This document shows positions 10,070-46,650 of a stretch of DNA of 56,390 nucleotides, piece by piece. Origin of the DNA: Candidatus Uhrbacteria bacterium (GTDB lineage: Bacteria; Patescibacteriota; Patescibacteriia; GWA2-47-26); the NCBI GenBank assembly GCA_016187515.1, contig JACPJN010000005.1, forward strand, positions 1 through 56,390, written 5' to 3'. Position numbers and translations under genes: made by a program. Below the pieces are notes generated by a model. It searched no databases, was not told where the DNA came from, and was given only the letters and a program-made list of their open reading frames with translations. How positions within the stretch are numbered: position 1 is the stretch's first letter; each line of letters starts with the position of its first letter.

Positions 10070-10139
10070 GCATTGTTCTTTGATAATGGGATTTATAGCG
10101 AAATAGGCGAGTGAAGCGCAAGGTGTCTTTCGTCTTTTT

Positions 10140-10162
10140 CCTCCCCTTAGGTTAAGGGGAGG
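10140..10162. repeat. CCTCCCCTTAGG hairpin repeat
   Basis: CCTCCCCTTA and TAAGGGGAGG are inverted around G. The CTTAAG-type repeat also occurs at 10205, 11411, 12125 and 18143. Confidence 0.6.
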
Positions 10163-10204
10163 TAGGAGGGGTTACGAGTCATGCACGGCTCATAACTCAC
10201 CCTA

Positions 10205-10227
10205 CCCTCTCTTAACTTAAGAGAGGG
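10205..10227. repeat. CCCTCTCTTAAC hairpin repeat
   Basis: CCCTCTCTTAA and TTAAGAGAGGG form a 23-base inverted repeat of the same class as the one at 10140. Confidence 0.6.
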
Positions 10228-10378
10228 AATACGATTGGACATCGCGCGCTTCACTCGATTCTCTGGGTGCGCTAAAGGGAATCCCATGCCGGGAAACCCA
10301 AGGTCATGCGACCGTTGCGACTAGGCCTGGAGATCAACTCCTGTCCCGACGTAAAGTCGGGAACAAGGGGAGGGACCG

Positions 10379-25809: not shown

Positions 25810-25903
25810 GACGACAGCAGGTGAAAAAATAACAAATAACAAATTCCAAATTACAAACAAATCACAAACTCCAATGATCGAAATTACAAATTCAAGTTTG
25901 TAA
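25556..25903 (+). CDS. Conserved CPR-type hypothetical protein, copy 2 (repeat-derived tail)
   Basis: ATG 25556 is chosen by alignment with copy 1; the ORF-track start is 18 codons earlier. Residues 1-85 match copy 1 almost completely. The last ~30 residues (KITNNKFQITNKSQTPMIE) are encoded by AAATTACAAATC-type repeats and are probably not native. Neither copy shows a normal C-terminus, so I cannot say where the family usually ends or which copy is functional. No promoter is obvious directly upstream. Confidence 0.65.
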   Translation: MKLRFQKSEIGNAAVFIRRCGYGEYYDRRMRKVSYMKRARMSDMFPRYHVYIEEQGEEVVLDLHLDQKRPSYEGSAMHSGEYDGATTAGEKITNNKFQITNKSQTPMIEITNSSL

Positions 25904-25945
25904 TTTGTAAATTGTGGTTTCCTTGGGATTTGTGATTTGGAATTT
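25828..25945. repeat. AAATTACAAATCAC inverted heptamer repeats
   Basis: Left half: ACAAATAACAAATTCCAAAT and similar units. Right half: their complements (GGGATTTGTGATTTGGAATT). The same class occurs at 46537-46650, with short runs in tpiA and the glycosyltransferase. Confidence 0.8.
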
Positions 25946-25958
25946 TATATGGTATAGT
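25930..25958 (+). promoter_or_regulatory. Candidate pyrG promoter with -35 inside the repeat
   Basis: TTGTGA (25930-25935) lies within the repeat's right arm. After 17 bases comes TATAGT (25953-25958), 40 bases before the pyrG start. Confidence 0.5.
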
Positions 25959-25998
25959 TTTTAACGAAGTTTAGTTGTATCTGTGGATAATATCGTGT

Positions 25999-27624: not shown

Positions 27625-27636
27625 AAAATACAATCG

Positions 27637-27777
27637 CTTGACCCCGCGCCTTAAGGCGGATATGTAAAATGAAAAATGCGGAGAGCGAGACAGTCTTTGA
27701 TTACAGGGCATAGCCCCGCACACGATTGTACCCCACGGCGTGTTGCGCCGAAGTCCGCTTAAGGCGCGGGGTTGACA
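27637..27777. repeat. MITE-like inverted-repeat element, copy 1 (141 bp)
   Basis: Ends TTGACCCCGCGCCTTAAGGC and CTTAAGGCGCGGGGTTGACA are imperfect inverses of about 22 bp. The ends match copy 2 (32737-32878) closely, including CCGAAGTCCGCTTAAGG, while the interiors differ. The right end supplies the -35 of the helicase promoter. Confidence 0.8.
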
Positions 27778-27800
27778 CGCTATTATTCTTGCGTTAGGAT
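27772..27800 (+). promoter_or_regulatory. Promoter of the DEAH helicase, -35 in MITE arm
   Basis: TTGACA (27772-27777) is the last six bases of the element. After 17 bases comes TAGGAT (27795-27800). Confidence 0.8.
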
Positions 27801-27870
27801 AAGAAATCGTATCCTGTCAATGGTGGCCGGGATGCGGGTTCCTTTTTTGCGCAACAAGATGGAGGAGAAC

Positions 27871-29967
27871 ATGAACGGTAAAGAGTTGCCGATTTGGGCG
27901 GTCATGCCGCAAGTACTCGCTCCTCTGCGGGAGGGGCGCAATGTCGTCGTTACGTCTCCGACCGGTTCCGGGAAGACCACGCAGGTTCCGCAGGCCATCC
28001 TTGATTCCGGGCTTGCCTATGACGGTATGATTTTCGCGGTTCAGTCACGGCGGGTCGCGTGCCGGGCTGCCGCGGTGCGCGTGGCCGAAGAGCGTGGCGC
28101 ACAGCTAGGTCGGGAGATTGGCTACATTGTTCGGTACGATAGGAAAACGTCCGAAGGTACGCAGATTTGCTTTGTAACCGATGGCGTGCTGATGCGTTTC
28201 CTGGAGAAGGATCCGGAACTGCGCAAAGTGAGCGTCGTCATTCTGGATGAGTTCCATGAGCGGCGGATGTTGTCCGATGCGGCGCTCGCGCTGATGCGGC
28301 AGGTGCAGAAGAAGCGCACGAACCTGCGGCTTGTCGCGATGTCGGCCACCCTCGATACGCTCGCGGTGCAGAAATTTCTTGATGCCGCGGTGGTGGACTC
28401 CGGAGGGGAAAAACTTTTCCCGATCGAGATCCGCCAATTCGGGAGAAGGCCGTTAACCAGGATGCTTCCGGAACAGATCGCAACGAGCGTACGCAACCTG
28501 TGCAGTAGCGGGAAATCCGGTCACATTTTGGTATTCCTTCCGGGCAAGGCCCTTATCCAAGATACGCGGCAAATGCTTACGCGCCGGGCCGAAAGATTTC
28601 CAAAGGAGTTTGCCAATACGGTCGTATTGCCGCTTCACGCGGAGCTTTCCGAAGAGGAACAGGATCGGGTCTTTAAGCCGACTGCGGAGCGCAAGATTAT
28701 TCTCGCGACCAACGTGGCCGAGACCTCGCTGACCATTCCCGGAGTGACCATGGTGGTTGATTCGGGATTGGAGCGTCGCGCGCGGTACTCTCCGCACAGC
28801 AGTATTACGCACTTGGGGATTGTTCCGATCTCCAAGGCATCCGCCACCCAGCGTACCGGCCGGTGCGGCCGCGAAGCGCCCGGGATTTGCGTGCGGCTGT
28901 GGTCGGCGAGCGAACATGCGCGCCTTGAAGCGCTGACGCCCCCGGAAATTCGGCGTACGGATGTGGGTGGACTGGTACTGTCGCTCAAAGCCGTAGGTGT
29001 CAATGAAGTTGGGAAGTTCCAATTTTTTGAGCCGCCTTCGGAAGAGCGACTCGCGAAAGCGCAAGAGTTGCTCACGAGATTGGGCGCGCTTGATCAAGGG
29101 GGAGGTCTGACCAAGATTGGTTGGAAAATGCTCCGCCTGCCGCTTCCCCCAAGACAGGCCAGAATGGTGGTTGAAGCACGAAAGAGCCGATGTCTGAAGA
29201 TGGTGTCAACGATTGCCTCTTGCATGCTTGATCCCTCAATTTTCGCGCGGCCGATGGGAAAGCGTGAATGGGCGCAAGATCAGCATCGCTCGTTCGCGAT
29301 TGATGATACCTCGGATTGCTTCAGTTTCCTTCAGCTCGTTCGCGAGGCCGATCATTTTAAGTTCAGTCCGGAGTGGTGTACGCGGCATGCAATCAATCGA
29401 AGCGCGCTTCTTGAGGCGTGGCGGTTGCGTTGGCATGTAATGCGCGCGGTGCATCGGATTGATCCAATGCATGTGGCGCCCGGACGAGAGCCCCACTTGC
29501 CTTCGCTTAGGGAACAGCGCGCGGTAATCCGCCGTTGTATTGCCGCCGGACTGGTGGACCGGGTTGCGCGGCGCGTGGCGCCCGGGCGGTACGAGCTTTG
29601 CACCGGAGCTGTCGTGGACCTTGACCAGGGCTCGGTGGTTGATGCGGAGTGGATCGTTGCCGGAGATATGCGCAAGGTGGGTACCACCAAAAAAGCGCCG
29701 GTTCGAATTTCGCTTGCCACCATGGTAGACCTTCCGATGATGGAGCAATTGGCGCCAACGCTCTTTCGAAGCAGTCGCGAGGTGATTGAGCGCTACCCGC
29801 TTACCAAGACCGCGCGGGTGCGTCGTGAACGCCGCTATCTGAACCTTGTTCTTGAGCAGGAGGAAGGATTGGTCGCGGACGGAAACGCCGGCGGAGAAAG
29901 CGGGCTTGCAAAACGCCTGGCGCCGCTCTCCGAGGCCGTTGCGCGGCTTACCGGAAAAACCAAGTAG
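27871..29967 (+). CDS. DEAH-family RNA helicase (HrpA/HrpB-like)
   Basis: This is a superfamily 2 ATP-dependent helicase. ATG 27871 is chosen because GGAGGAG lies just before it; the ORF-track start is 33 codons earlier, inside the promoter. Motifs in order: I TSPTGSGKTTQVPQ (about 28-41), Ia region RRVACRAAA, II DEFHER (a DEAH variant), III SAT, IV/V ILATNVAETSLTIPGV, VI QRTGRCGRE. Winged-helix and HA2-type helical segments follow (FEPPSEERLAKAQELLTRLG, MLRLPLPPRQARMV). At 698 aa it is shorter than E. coli HrpA or HrpB. It may act in rRNA or mRNA remodelling. It is monocistronic with a terminator. Confidence 0.87.
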   Translation: MNGKELPIWAVMPQVLAPLREGRNVVVTSPTGSGKTTQVPQAILDSGLAYDGMIFAVQSRRVACRAAAVRVAEERGAQLGREIGYIVRYDRKTSEGTQICFVTDGVLMRFLEKDPELRKVSVVILDEFHERRMLSDAALALMRQVQKKRTNLRLVAMSATLDTLAVQKFLDAAVVDSGGEKLFPIEIRQFGRRPLTRMLPEQIATSVRNLCSSGKSGHILVFLPGKALIQDTRQMLTRRAERFPKEFANTVVLPLHAELSEEEQDRVFKPTAERKIILATNVAETSLTIPGVTMVVDSGLERRARYSPHSSITHLGIVPISKASATQRTGRCGREAPGICVRLWSASEHARLEALTPPEIRRTDVGGLVLSLKAVGVNEVGKFQFFEPPSEERLAKAQELLTRLGALDQGGGLTKIGWKMLRLPLPPRQARMVVEARKSRCLKMVSTIASCMLDPSIFARPMGKREWAQDQHRSFAIDDTSDCFSFLQLVREADHFKFSPEWCTRHAINRSALLEAWRLRWHVMRAVHRIDPMHVAPGREPHLPSLREQRAVIRRCIAAGLVDRVARRVAPGRYELCTGAVVDLDQGSVVDAEWIVAGDMRKVGTTKKAPVRISLATMVDLPMMEQLAPTLFRSSREVIERYPLTKTARVRRERRYLNLVLEQEEGLVADGNAGGESGLAKRLAPLSEAVARLTGKTK

Positions 29968-29990
29968 AAAAATCCGTCCATCATGGCGGT

Positions 29991-30020
29991 GAGGTCGCAG
30001 AATATCGCGACCTCTTTTTT
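29991..30020 (+). terminator. Rho-independent terminator
   Basis: GAGGTCGC and GCGACCTC form an 8-bp stem around AGAATATC, followed by six T residues. Confidence 0.9.
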
Positions 30021-30045
30021 ATTGAGGGGTCACTCCGGTGGGGTG

Positions 30046-30075
30046 TTGATAAGTGATTATTAAGTGTGGTATACT
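30046..30075 (+). promoter_or_regulatory. Promoter of the DUF2335 pair
   Basis: TTGATA (30046-30051), 18 bases ending GTGTGG, TATACT (30070-30075). Confidence 0.65.
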
Positions 30076-30118
30076 CAATTTGACAGGAATCTAAGCAGAT
30101 GGTAAAAGGATAAGCGAT

Positions 30119-30340
30119 ATGGGCATTGAGAATACATTCTATCTTTTTGCAAAGCCTTCATTTATTGAAGGAGTTGGGCGCGTACTTGACTTAGGTGGAG
30201 TACTTGATACCTATAACATCAGTACAACCCCAGCCGAAGCAGATGCCAAGGCACTCCGCACTGATTGGATGGCAGTCGGTAATGATCTAAGGAGTGCCAT
30301 GCAACAATATGCAAGCCAATTCTCCGGCGTCGCAAGATGA
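30119..30340 (+). CDS. Short protein preceding DUF2335, 73 aa
   Basis: The sequence (MGIENTFYLFAKPSFIEGVG, then DLGGVLDTYNISTTPAEADAKALRTDW in two parts) resembles small proteins that often precede DUF2335 genes, with the pattern AKPSFLEG..R..DfGg.l..YN.S....EAD..A...DW.aVG.Dl. Function is unknown. The ribosome-binding site AAAGGA is 10 bases upstream. The end overlaps the DUF2335 gene, so the pair is translationally coupled. A toxin-antitoxin-like pairing is possible but not shown. Confidence 0.7.
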   Translation: MGIENTFYLFAKPSFIEGVGRVLDLGGVLDTYNISTTPAEADAKALRTDWMAVGNDLRSAMQQYASQFSGVAR

Positions 30341-30716
30341 ACGACGTATCTTTTCCGCTACTCAAGAATTACATGTGGGTCCTCTTCCGAAGCCGCAAGA
30401 TTTCGAGTATTATGAGCGAGTGTTGCCCGGAGCTGCTCAAAGAATACTCGCGATGGCGGAACAGCAATCAATGCATCGGCGCAAGCAAGAAAATCGCGTG
30501 ATCCTGGGAGATTTGATAAAATCGGCAGTCGGGCTCCTTTTTGGATTTTTGATAGGTATGGCGAGCATTATAGGAGGGATTTGGTTGGTATATCAAGGTA
30601 AATCAGTAACAGGAGGGTTTATTAGTTTTACAGGCGTTGCAGCATTGACAAGTGTTTTTGTCTATGGTTCTCAACAACGCAGGAGAGAACGCGAAGAACG
30701 ACGAATTACTAATTGA
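30309..30716 (+). CDS. DUF2335 family membrane protein
   Basis: The 135-aa protein contains the DUF2335 core: HVGPLPKPQDFEYYERVLPG, AAQRILAMAEQQSMHRR, and two adjacent hydrophobic segments (about 80-99 and 105-122) before a basic tail (QQRRREREERR). I take ATG 30309; an in-frame GTG at 30294 would add five residues. An AAGGAG lies about 14 bases upstream. Function is unknown. The pairing with a short upstream protein is conserved in other bacteria to my knowledge. Confidence 0.78.
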   Translation: MQANSPASQDERRIFSATQELHVGPLPKPQDFEYYERVLPGAAQRILAMAEQQSMHRRKQENRVILGDLIKSAVGLLFGFLIGMASIIGGIWLVYQGKSVTGGFISFTGVAALTSVFVYGSQQRRREREERRITN

Positions 30717-30792
30717 ACGATTATAATAATAGAGAAAAAAACGGCCCGCAAAAACATCGCGGTCCATTTTCTTATAAACTGCCCTCGCGATC

Positions 30793-30821
30793 TTGACGGA
30801 AAGCATAGGAGGCGGTACTAT
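30793..30821 (+). promoter_or_regulatory. rnpB promoter
   Basis: TTGACG (30793-30798), 17 bases, TACTAT (30816-30821), about 15 bases before the RNA's predicted 5' end. Confidence 0.7.
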
Positions 30822-30835
30822 CCTTTTGCTCACAG

Positions 30836-31347
30836 GGAACTGGATGGTCGCTGCCCCGTGCTTAAGGCGGGGGAGAGGAAAGTCCGGACACCCTCCGCAG
30901 CAATGCGGAGAAAAAGGTACCAGCTAACGGCTGGGCATCTTGACCGGGATAACTCCGACGCTTCGGTCGGAGAAAAACCGGCTGACGGACAGTGCTACAG
31001 AGACCATACTACCCGAGCGTCACCCACTCTCTCCTCCCAGTGTGGGTTAATAGCCCCACTGGTCAGGGTGGCGTTGGGGAAAGGTGAAAAGTGAGGTGGT
31101 GTTGAATTATGTGCTTCGCCCAAAAGGTGGCGCATGTAAAACGGCTACACCTCTTCCCGGCAGGCAACTGTCGCGGAGGAAAACCCTACCTGGTGCAAGG
31201 CCTAGAGCCGCTTGAGCCCAATCGCGAGGTTGGGCCTAGAGGAATGACCGTCGCCTTTTGCGCAGGGCCTTGTTTGGCAAGTATCCGCAAGGATACTTAG
31301 TCAGCCGAAGCTTTGGCAGGAGGAACAGGATCCGGCTTATAGGTTCC
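30836..31347 (+). ncRNA. rnpB: RNase P RNA (catalytic subunit)
   Basis: The conserved cores are clear: GAGGAAAGTCCGGACACC near the 5' end, GACGGACAGTGCTACAGAGA, GGTGAAAAGTGAGGTGGT (a GGTGAAA...GAGG block), GCAACTGTCGCGGAGGAAAACC, and the 3' CAGGATCCGGCTTATAGG. P1 can form between GGAAC at 30836 and GGTTCC near 31342-31347. At about 510 nt the RNA is longer than the usual 350-400. The excess includes hairpins such as CTCCGACGCTTCGGTCGGAG (30953-30972), which match repeats elsewhere in this window. The RNA is essential for tRNA 5' maturation. ORFs predicted inside it are spurious. Confidence 0.92.
30953..30972 (+). repeat. CTCCGAC/GTCGGAG hairpin inside rnpB
   Basis: The 20-base palindrome differs at one base from the copy in the tpiA leader repeats and resembles GCTCCGACTGCGGTCGGAGC in the sigma gene (35611-35630). 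Confidence 0.65.
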
Positions 31348-31389
31348 TTGTGAGCGTTTTTGACGTTTTTCAAACGGAAGGGGAACGGA

Positions 31390-31593
31390 ATGTCTGCAAA
31401 AAGAAAAAAGAAGGCAAGAGGTCAGCCATTGCCACAGGAATCCATACCACAGAAGAGTGGCCCCCCCGCAGTGATAAAGGATGCGGACGGCAATGTGGTT
31501 CGTTTGGTTGCTACGCCCGAGCAGGAAAAGGAGGTTCTACGGAAAATCGTGAGAATACTGCTTGGCTCAACCTCATCATCCTCTTCTAAATAA
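31390..31593 (+). CDS. Small basic/hypothetical protein, 67 aa
   Basis: No family recognised. ATG 31390 follows AAGGGGAA. The N-terminus is very basic (MSAKRKKKARGQPLP). The middle resembles a short beta hairpin (IKDADGNVVRLVATPEQE), and the end is a helix plus poly-Ser. It lies 40 bases after rnpB without its own clear promoter, so it is probably transcribed by readthrough. A terminator follows. Confidence 0.5.
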   Translation: MSAKRKKKARGQPLPQESIPQKSGPPAVIKDADGNVVRLVATPEQEKEVLRKIVRILLGSTSSSSSK

Positions 31594-31656
31594 GGTGGCA
31601 CTGCGGTACCTATTCATCAATCAACGCGCGCCAATTGGGGCGAGCGTGCTCTTTCT

Positions 31657-31692
31657 CGCCCGGCATGAATGTGTTGGGCGCTTTTCTTTTTT
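31657..31692 (+). terminator. Rho-independent terminator
   Basis: CGCCC and GGGCG pair around GGCATGAATGTGTT and are followed by CTTTTCTTTTTT. A preceding GGGCGAG/CTCGCCC hairpin competes with it. Confidence 0.65.
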
Positions 31693-31704
31693 AGGTACAG
31701 GTGC

Positions 31705-31732
31705 TTGACACGCACCACTTGGTGTGTAATAA
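31705..31732 (+). promoter_or_regulatory. Promoter of the presenilin-like gene with spacer palindrome
   Basis: TTGACA (31705-31710) and TAATAA (31727-31732) are spaced by 16 bases (17 to AATAAT). The spacer is nearly a palindrome (CGCACCACTTGGTGTG) and could be an operator. Confidence 0.7.
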
Positions 31733-31740
31733 TGCGGACA

Positions 31741-31750
31741 TGCTCTTTGA
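31741..31750 (+). promoter_or_regulatory. boxA-like leader element
   Basis: TGCTCTTTGA matches the boxA consensus TGCTCTTTAA in nine of ten bases and lies about 10 bases downstream of the -10. Confidence 0.5.
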
Positions 31751-31775
31751 TATATGAGCAGGAAAGGAGACGATC

Positions 31776-32672
31776 GTGATAAATACCGTGCTGGTTGGGA
31801 TTTTGTTCTTCATTGTGGTTGCAAGCCTTCTCACGATCGTGAGTTGGATTGCCGCGAGGTTTGCGCAACTCTATCCAAAGAAGGAAGGGCTTTTTGCCGC
31901 CGGGTCGAAGCAGTCTCATTCTGACGAAGCGCGCCCGCTCTCTCTCGCTCAAAAGGTATTGATAGGGGTGGTGTTAGTTCTGACTACGATTGTTGTACAA
32001 GTCATTGAGCAGAGAACCGGTCTCCGTATCTTTCTCATCGCCAGTTACTGGTGTGGGGTTCGGTTGCTTGTATTGCTTGTGCAAGAAACGATGGGCGACT
32101 CGCGCAACTCCGTTGTTTGGTGTGTTACATCATGGAGTATCCCAACCATTATTACGGCCGGATGGATGGGATTTCCCAATTGGGTAACGCTCAACAGCAC
32201 CGGCATAATGATAGTGTGCGCAATGTTGATTACCATGCGGCATATTTCGCCTCGCGCGGTGGTCATTATTTCGTTTGTGATCATGGTGTTCGACATCGTT
32301 GCGGTCTACGCCTCGGACATCATGCTCAAGATAGTAGGAGTGTATGACGGAATGCCCGGAATGCTTTGGGTGCCAAAGGATTGGTCGCTTGCTGGAGGGT
32401 TTGGAGTACAGAATAGAATCATGGATCTTGGGTTGGGCGACTTGTTTTTTCCGGGCCTTTCCATGATATATATCGCGCGGATCGCGCTTGAGAAGAATGC
32501 AATCGCGTCGGTTGTCGGCGCGTATCTTGGATACATTTTCGGCGGCGCAATTGCGATGAGCGTCTCTGCGGTAACCCACACGGGGCAACCGGCCACGATC
32601 TTTCTCATCCCCGCGGTGTTTGTCGGATACCGACTGGGAAATGCACTTGCGCAACCGCAGGTTGCGCAATAG
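31776..32672 (+). CDS. Presenilin/signal-peptide-peptidase-like intramembrane aspartyl protease
   Basis: The 298-aa protein has about nine hydrophobic segments and the three hallmarks of GxGD proteases in order: an FD pair in a helix (IMVFDIVAVYAS, about residue 172, the YD motif), LGLGDLFFPG (about 226, the GxGD motif), and QPATIFLIPAVF (about 273, corresponding to the QPALLYLVP or PAL motif, with Thr replacing Leu). This predicts cleavage of transmembrane segments. GTG is used as start, with AAAGGAG 6 bases before it. The gene has its own promoter, a boxA-like leader and a terminator. A TTGCGCAAC/GTTGCGCAA hairpin overlaps the last codons. Confidence 0.75.
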   Translation: MINTVLVGILFFIVVASLLTIVSWIAARFAQLYPKKEGLFAAGSKQSHSDEARPLSLAQKVLIGVVLVLTTIVVQVIEQRTGLRIFLIASYWCGVRLLVLLVQETMGDSRNSVVWCVTSWSIPTIITAGWMGFPNWVTLNSTGIMIVCAMLITMRHISPRAVVIISFVIMVFDIVAVYASDIMLKIVGVYDGMPGMLWVPKDWSLAGGFGVQNRIMDLGLGDLFFPGLSMIYIARIALEKNAIASVVGAYLGYIFGGAIAMSVSAVTHTGQPATIFLIPAVFVGYRLGNALAQPQVAQ

Positions 32673-32675
32673 CTT

Positions 32676-32715
32676 CCGCCCGGCGCTCTCTGCGCTGTGG
32701 CGGACTTTTTTATTT
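32676..32715 (+). terminator. Rho-independent terminator
   Basis: CCGCC and GGCGG pair around an inner GCGC hairpin, then ACTTTTTT. Confidence 0.8.
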
Positions 32716-32736
32716 ATTCAATAAATGCTACAATGT

Positions 32737-32878
32737 TTGACCCCGCGCCTTAAGGCGGACATGTAAATATAGGGTAACTCAAAAACCAGGTGAACTTTAA
32801 TTGTATCCCTGAACTTACTCATAAAATTGCACCAAGCGGCGCCTTGCGCCGAAGTCCGCTTAAGGCGCGGGGTTGACA
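32737..32878. repeat. MITE-like inverted-repeat element, copy 2 (142 bp)
   Basis: Ends TTGACCCCGCGCCTTAAGGC and CTTAAGGCGCGGGGTTGACA are shared with copy 1, while the ~80-base centre differs. The right end again forms a -35 box, here for rnc. Confidence 0.8.
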
Positions 32879-32901
32879 GCCGAGCCAAAGGGTGGTAGGT
32901 T
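32873..32901 (+). promoter_or_regulatory. rnc promoter, -35 in MITE arm
   Basis: TTGACA (32873-32878), 17 bases, TAGGTT (32896-32901). The leader then reads GGTCCTTTGACAATAATGGG (boxA-like). Confidence 0.72.
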
Positions 32902-32958: not shown

Positions 32959-33678
32959 ATGTATTCCGACATGGAGGCGCGGCTGGCCGCGCTGGAACAA
33001 CGACTGGGCGTGGAGTTCAAGGATCGCAAGCTACTGCTGGAGGCGGTAACGCACCGTTCCTACCTGAATGAAAATCGGAGGCATCCGGTAGGGCACAACG
33101 AGCTTTTGGAGTTCTTGGGCGACTCGGCGCTTGAACTCGCCATCACCGAGTACTTGTTCAAAAGGTTCCGCGGCAAGGAAACCGAAGGTGTGCTTACCAA
33201 CTTTCGCGCCGCACTCGTCAATCTGGATTCGTGCGCCACTATCGCCATCGAGTTGAAGCTCGACGAAGCGATCCTCATGTCGCGCGGAGAAGTCAAGTCA
33301 GGGCGCGGTTCCAAGAGTTGGCGCGTCATCATGGGTAACGCCATGGAAGCAGTGCTTGGCGCGATCCTCGTGGATCAAGGAATCGGCGCGGTGCGGCTGG
33401 TGGTGGATGCGCTTTTCAGCGCGCGTTTTTCCCAGATCGTCGCGCGCCACGAGGATCCCAAGAGCGAACTTCAGGAGTTGGTGCAGGATCGTCAAAGCAT
33501 CACTCCGCATTACAGTGTGGTGCGCGAGTGGGGCCCGGATCACGCGCGCCATTTTCGGATGGCGGTGTATGTGGGCTCCATGAAGATCGGGGAAGGGGAA
33601 GGAGATTCCAAGCACGAAGCGGAAAAACAGGCGGCGCGGGCAGCTCTCAAAACCATCAACCGTCAAAGTGACGCTTGA
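32959..33678 (+). CDS. rnc: Ribonuclease III
   Basis: This is a double-stranded RNA endonuclease for rRNA and mRNA processing. The catalytic domain holds LLLEAVTHRSYLNE (about 25-38), the signature HNELLEFLGDSALELAI (about 50-66; usually NERLEFLGDAVL), and the second acidic site GNAMEAVLGAILVDQG (about 130-145). The dsRNA-binding domain follows (DPKSELQELVQDR, then GEGEGDSKHEAEKQAARAAL). Length (239 aa) is normal. The start ATG 32959 follows AGAAAGG by about 8 bases. The promoter is supplied by a MITE-like element. The sigma-factor gene starts 54 bases downstream without a clear terminator, so the two may be cotranscribed. Confidence 0.92.
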   Translation: MYSDMEARLAALEQRLGVEFKDRKLLLEAVTHRSYLNENRRHPVGHNELLEFLGDSALELAITEYLFKRFRGKETEGVLTNFRAALVNLDSCATIAIELKLDEAILMSRGEVKSGRGSKSWRVIMGNAMEAVLGAILVDQGIGAVRLVVDALFSARFSQIVARHEDPKSELQELVQDRQSITPHYSVVREWGPDHARHFRMAVYVGSMKIGEGEGDSKHEAEKQAARAALKTINRQSDA

Positions 33679-46536: not shown

Positions 46537-46650
46537 AAATTCCAAATTCCAAATTACAAACAAATCTCAAATCCCAAATACCAAACGTTTGTGATTTGTG
46601 ATTTGGAGCTTGGAATTTCCTTGTAATTTGGTGTTTGTGATTTGGAATTT
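46537..46650. repeat. AAATTCC/AAATCAC inverted heptamer repeats in pilus operon
   Basis: Tandem AAATTCCAAATTACAAAC units face their complements (GTTTGTGATTTGTGATTTGG) around CGTTTG. It fills the 110-base gap between two pseudopilin genes and could fold into a long hairpin in the polycistronic mRNA. Same class as 25828-25945. Confidence 0.82.

Follow-up and report, generated by a model that had tools for sequence, protein, structure and literature searches.

In the genome of a Candidatus Uhrbacteria bacterium (1.2 Mb, G000 hereafter), a stretch of 56,390 nt was analysed. It is called here the window, and coordinates given without a contig name are positions in it. The window contains two short repeats, one in front of a DEAD/DEAH-box helicase gene and the other in front of a ribonuclease III gene (rnc). 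Both are, with high probability, non-autonomous insertions of the miniature inverted-repeat transposable element (MITE) type that landed in pre-existing -35 boxes, and the family to which they belong is most likely mobilised by a GIY-YIG nuclease.

An initial annotation of this DNA had described two MITE-like elements with common ends and different interiors, and this description was confirmed (exact limits in Table 1). Each of them adjoins the -35 box of a real-looking promoter. In both elements the 15-nt terminal inverted repeats are 100% complementary, flanking A/T included. Both have TTGACCCCGCGCCTTAAGGCGGAYATGTAAA at the left end and CGGCGNNTTGCGCCGAAGTCCGCTTAAGGCGCGGGGTTGACA at the right end, whereas the interior, about 75 bp, is practically unrelated. 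Two occurrences of CCGCTTAAGGCGCGGGGTTGACA in the window compare with 0.00 expected in shuffled sequence. Pattern searches in G000, which may miss arms with more than a few mismatches, gave four complete and dispersed copies of the window subfamily, all of them at TTGACA and all with a small hairpin (CGGCGNNTTGCGCCG) at a distance of 21 nt from the right end. Single-arm matches in this genome (C3, C4:216415, C4:305239, C4:70172) had no convincing partner arm.

Inspection of related genomes revealed that the two elements are members of a much larger family, whose ends read CCCCGCRCCTT...AAGGYGCGGGG, and that they have both the conserved end and the 4-bp duplication characteristic of it. Arms separated by 80–110 bp were found in 12 of 381 genomes of the class, whereas the reversed control pattern was found in none. 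A scan of species genomes for arms separated by 255–285 bp gave 29 loci in Patescibacteria, Omnitrophota, Elusimicrobia, a WOR-3 bacterium and others; a few of these (Holophagaceae, Pseudomonadales, Bacteroidetes) lack both the duplication and a GIY-YIG gene and could be chance matches. All copies together amounted to 154 distinct sites, a sample biased by its collection through arm sequence and by a few copy-rich genomes, so that not all sites are independent. An exact 4-bp duplication flanked 82 of the 154, compared with 5.4% expected from cross-paired flanks, and it extended to 5 bp at two sites only. The duplicated words were mostly TTGA/TCAA (28), TGAA/TTCA (22), TAAA/TTTA (19) and TATG/CATA (6), with few others. 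Positions 12–19 of the arms are complementary within an element and differ between elements, which suggests that a fold-back form may matter in the movement, or that the arms are repaired on themselves.

The TTGA sites were compared with 685 other TTGA words from the same loci. A strong -10 box (TA...T, at least 4 of 6 consensus positions) was located exactly 17 nt from the -35 at 13 of the 28 TTGA sites, but for only 3.1% of the background words (p about 5e-13). Other spacings were seen at zero to two sites each, except 12 nt with four. Similarly, the word was part of TTGACA at 14 of the 28 sites, versus 3.6% in the background. Therefore, the family really lands in -35 boxes.

This result bears on the interpretation given in the initial annotation, in which TTGACA forms part of the element's right arm and the element, by capturing a -10 that lies by chance 17 bases away, distributes half-promoters. 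In both window copies the -35 is indeed contiguous with the arm and a -10 does follow at 17 nt, and the spacing is real in the family as well, but it reflects the place of landing; a chance -10 at exactly this distance in 13 of 28 cases is implausible. What had been overlooked is that TTGAC stands as a direct repeat at both ends, with TTGA as the duplicated word. TTGA is the target-site duplication, and the following CA, the 17-nt spacer and the -10 are host sequence. The other copies in G000 agree. Copy 3 (C7:92880-93000) has the same internal polarity as the window copies, with the left-end motif and the right-side hairpin, and reads TGTCAA[...]TCAA, so that TTGACA is at the opposite end, facing a gene on the other strand; TTGACA can therefore not be the element's own end. 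Copy 4 (C4:235190, L053) consists of TTGA, TCCCGCGCCTT...AAGGCGCGGGA and TTGACA-17-TACCAT, and precedes a tRNA gene. Elsewhere in the family the duplicated word is TAAA, TGAA or CATA instead, and elements with the same arms are located at start codons with no -10 downstream, a situation that the initial annotation had itself named as refuting its reading. As a general rule the half-promoter explanation is already refuted, and we regard it as having almost no chance of being correct.

A promoter that exists without the element was found in relatives. In genome G051 an element interrupts the rpsL promoter (TTGACG-17-TAATCT) with TTGA duplicated, whereas in the sister species G009 the promoter (TTGACG-17-TATTGT) is intact and has no element, over an adjoining coding flank that is 89% identical. 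A second empty site was given by a start-codon insertion of G034 (C32, L088), which is absent in G100.

In other lineages, elements were found at start codons. In Omnitrophota and relatives, all 25 TGAN duplications lay at gene starts, cutting A|TGA and in one case G|TGA; two of the 25 were assigned by gene identity or a GTG start and not by the strict automatic rule. At these sites the last G of the arm rebuilds a GTG start, as read in the translations of genes that include NusG, NrdR, PurN, RadA and L36, and the AAGGTG of the arm appears to lie at the Shine-Dalgarno position. In genome G034, all six TATG duplications carried the ATG of a gene start. In G000, a tRNA gene has been entered at its 5' end by a GIY-YIG element (L132, 1475-1785; C4:337131 region), where on our reading the arm end GGGGC and the duplicated CCATA rebuild the 5' end, or acceptor strand, of the tRNA.

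Such a distribution could also arise by survivorship, if insertion hit short T-N-R-A words at random and streamlined genomes kept the expression-neutral events alone. Most sites are indeed of a kind at which a signal is rebuilt or left untouched, whether a -35 box, a start codon, a stop codon or a tRNA 5' end, and we give this explanation a substantial chance, somewhat below even. Neutral intergenic TTGA or TGAA words should then be hit as well, yet 31 of 31 TGAN and TATG sites are at gene starts, which suggests in addition an extended target preference (A|TGA, TTGAC) or a coupling to transcription or translation signals. We infer that the observed sites reflect both target preference and selection against damaging insertions.

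In Patescibacteria, Omnitrophota, Elusimicrobia and others, members about 300 bp long hold a single open reading frame of 85–95 codons and nothing else. Its product is a GIY-YIG domain (PF01541, E 9e-14 to 3e-18), with the UPF0213 protein BH0048 as nearest solved chain. Nineteen intact reading frames were collected for alignment, and Y5, Y17, G19, R27, H31 and E63, which include the catalytic residues, were invariant in all of them. In a search made independently of the arm pattern, inverted arms bounded 10 of 25 GIY-YIG genes, compared with 0 of 91 control windows from the same loci. The arms around these genes vary in sequence from case to case, and some are quite different and have 4-bp duplications of their own. 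Since 300 bp leave no room for another gene, and given the association with the arms, the GIY-YIG nuclease is the best candidate for the mobiliser. It is likely to act in trans on deleted copies such as those of the window, which lack the gene and can be at most non-autonomous members. Two stretches in the window elements that by eye resembled coding remnants (KRRLAPKSA*, GELYIG) were dropped, as a six-frame profile search gave them no support.

Alternatively, an ordinary transposase of the DDE or HUH type, unseen here, might move the MITE family, with the GIY-YIG protein as passenger or homing-type helper. Inverted ends with a short duplication are the classic signature of DDE enzymes, tRNA genes or non-coding DNA are likewise found between the same arms, and catalysis of the movement by GIY-YIG is itself presumed. 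Against this stand the lack of space in the 300-bp members and the recurrence of GIY-YIG with unrelated arm sequences, some of them with duplication. Moreover, a larger element with such arms and a different enzyme was not encountered: a 1110-bp arm-bounded stretch in G034, considered as an autonomous element, is most likely two elements around rpsE. We find a passenger GIY-YIG, moved with the family by an unrelated transposase in trans, rather unlikely.

The insertions most probably occurred as follows. A transposition-like event with a 4-bp stagger would have placed each window element inside the TTGA of an existing TTGACA. Repair would have duplicated TTGA, and the right copy, together with the host CA, spacer and -10, would still be read as a complete promoter. 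Because the promoter is completed in this way, downstream expression should be largely preserved, and only sequences 5' of the -35 would have been pushed away. The GIY-YIG nuclease of the 300-bp members would most likely move itself and, in trans, the deleted copies. At both loci the effect is most likely small, with the -35 rebuilt and the predicted promoters retained, and the main change most likely concerns what lies upstream of the -35. The two promoters named in the initial annotation are both present, but the -10 of rnc is poor: a consensus scan picked up the helicase promoter, while that of rnc fell below its threshold. The rnc gene of the window is one of two in G000 and is the extra paralogue; the other (C9:12249-12446) matches the rnc of a relative.

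A few bases upstream of both insertions (approximately 27629-27634 and 32729-32734) the sequence reads TACAAT, a possible -10 for transcription of the element. Transcripts running through the elements, whether from this TACAAT or from another start, would form long hairpins, possible RNase III substrates near rnc. Alternatively, the repeats might be a conserved structured RNA or 5' leader (riboregulator, RNase III substrate), fixed before certain genes and not mobile. The strong hairpin folding (z of -4.5 to -6.1), the within-element complementarity of arms that vary from one element to the next, the copy in front of rnc and the TACAAT common to both window copies would fit such an RNA. However, the interior is not conserved, elements occur in both orientations relative to the gene, and the transcription start is expected 3' of the element. 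Nor does any curated RNA family match the elements, an Rfam scan of the window having returned only RNase P and three tRNAs. Together with the 4-bp duplications and the empty sites, this makes a fixed RNA leader very unlikely.

Several points weigh against GIY-YIG-mobilised insertion into -35 boxes. An exact duplication is missing at about half of the arm-bounded sites (decay, tRNA and rRNA sites, mispaired arms), and copy 3 faces only a weak -10, TGTACT at a spacing of 18. The six-frame profile search supported no GIY-YIG remnant in the interiors of the window elements. No GIY-YIG-carrying member with the exact arm CCCCGCGCCTTAAG was found in G000, whose three GIY-YIG genes have other arms or none; GIY-YIG elements with ends closely related to those of the window were met only in other genomes (e.g. 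G001 C22:51816-52122). To our knowledge, the characterised GIY-YIG enzymes leave 3' overhangs shorter than 4 nt. Finally, in contrast to the family members described above, neither of the two window elements yielded an empty site; for rnc this is because the relative G001 has only the other paralogue, and the window one was not found there.

Table 1. Elements, duplications, promoters and genes in the window.
Feature	Position	Strand	Remarks
TTGA, left target-site duplication copy, element 1	27638..27641	+	same word as at 27772-27775; the family as a rule duplicates exactly 4 bp
Element 1, MITE-like, 130 bp, arms CCCCGCGCCTTAAG / CTTAAGGCGCGGGG	27642..27771	+	long single-hairpin fold, z = -4.5
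Internal hairpin CGGCGTGTTGCGCCG, element 1, polarity marker	27736..27750	+	
TTGA, right target-site duplication copy, element 1, first four bases of the -35	27772..27775	+	
Predicted promoter TTGACA-17-TAGGAT of the helicase gene, host sequence	27772..27800	+	consensus scan, 10/12 matches
DEAD/DEAH-box helicase gene with HA2 domain (HrpA/HrpB-like)	27871..29967	+	PF00270, PF00271, PF04408, PF21010; 3' of element 1
TTGA, left target-site duplication copy, element 2	32737..32740	+	
Element 2, MITE-like, 132 bp, arms as element 1	32741..32872	+	folding z = -6.1
Internal hairpin CGGCGCCTTGCGCCG, element 2	32837..32851	+	
TTGA, right target-site duplication copy, element 2	32873..32876	+	
Predicted promoter TTGACA-17-TAGGTT of rnc, host sequence, weak -10	32873..32901	+	-10 matches consensus 3/6
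Ribonuclease III gene (rnc)	32959..33678	+	PF14622, PF00636, PF00035; 3' of element 2

Arms of the family were also encountered around or within RNA genes. Arms of the form CCCCGCACCTT...AAGGTGCGGGG enclose complete tRNA genes in several genomes, without clear duplication (G000:C7:164769-164876, i.e. L010, and L042, L061, L063, L073, L075, L097); in L073 and L075 the outer flanks resemble a second, interrupted tRNA gene. In L067 (1501-1616) and L068 (1501-1611), the same arms form an insertion in an apparent 23S rRNA gene, presumably, judging by the flanks, at the helix-25 region known for intervening sequences. GIY-YIG elements with family arms were located inside apparent 16S rRNA genes in L105 and L112. 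Three near-identical 108-bp arm-bounded units in G388 (L218, L221, L223) are each followed by TAAGGTTTTGT and have no 4-bp duplication; they may be part of a larger repeat. The window itself contains a stretch of about 150 bp (10108-10257) whose 20-nt inverted ends, CGAGTGAAGCGCAAGGTGTC / GACATCGCGCGCTTCACTCG, are imperfect; its arms are unrelated and it has no clear duplication. It also contains AAATTCCAAATTACAAA-type repeats at 25821-25965 and 46537-46650 in inverted arrangement.

The family has the traits by which MITEs are recognised, namely inverted repeats, a duplication of fixed length, dispersed copies without transposase gene, and empty sites. An autonomous parent with the same ends, a dispensable trait, was not found in G000. 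Among known systems, the Correia/NEMIS elements of Neisseria carry promoter parts in their ends themselves and have TA as duplication, whereas here the -35 belongs to the target, outside the arm, TTGA is duplicated, and a GIY-YIG nuclease is presumed to be the mobiliser. They are otherwise alike in being short and non-autonomous, with inverted ends, a location upstream of genes, promoter sequence at the end and hairpin transcripts that RNase III can cut (PMC10969869, PMC2649163). With other bacterial MITEs such as ERIC, RUP and MITEAba12, the elements share terminal inverted repeats, target duplication, absence of a gene and mobilisation in trans (PMC10969869, PMC6382973); they differ in that the parent belongs to no known insertion-sequence family, and in that interiors diverge almost fully while the arms stay.

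IS200/IS605 elements, REP/RAYT and PATEs likewise have short palindromic ends, TTGAC- or TTAC-like target words and non-autonomous derivatives. These use a Y1 transposase and insert beside a tetra- or pentanucleotide without duplicating it, the IS200/IS605 type in fixed orientation to the target. In contrast, the duplication is exact here and insertion occurs in both orientations, by which a reading as IS200/605-like, suggested by the TTGAC words, was ruled out. The palindromic elements of Rickettsia and Wolbachia are also short and have no known mobiliser; they are tolerated in genes, tRNA and rRNA and kept in frame inside proteins, whereas the present family mostly avoids gene interiors and regenerates signals. 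Free-standing and intron-borne GIY-YIG homing endonucleases (PF01541) have the same catalytic domain. Here, however, the gene is enclosed by inverted arms, the target is duplicated over 4 bp and the sites are scattered over the genome, which points to a transposition-like process and not to allelic homing. In rRNA genes of the candidate phyla radiation, GIY-YIG proteins have been reported in insertions that match no known intron and whose sites do not suggest homing (PMC11270868); these insertions fit the GIY-YIG element family.

No description of such elements was found in the open literature on GIY-YIG with Patescibacteria, Omnitrophota, MITEs, inverted repeats or target duplication, subscription papers and preprints being outside this search. 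As far as tested, a family with GIY-YIG as its only gene is new, widespread and apparently undescribed. On balance we favour the view that it represents a new class of transposable element, moved by a single nuclease of 85–95 residues and with autonomous copies of about 300 bp, far smaller than known insertion sequences, which inserts into expression signals (-35 boxes, start codons, tRNA 5' ends) and regenerates them. For annotation, this means that a promoter flanking such an element is made by the host, and that a GTG start following ...AAGGTGCGGG can have arisen as the scar of an insertion. If GIY-YIG alone moves the element, this would represent a new transposition chemistry, and the element would rank among the smallest known autonomous transposons. 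The abundance of small GIY-YIG genes in these genomes and the presence of GIY-YIG in rRNA insertions unlike introns would then be explained as well. Streamlined bacteria have little spare DNA, and the repair of the -35 box or start codon that has been entered would be a concrete answer to how selfish elements persist in them.

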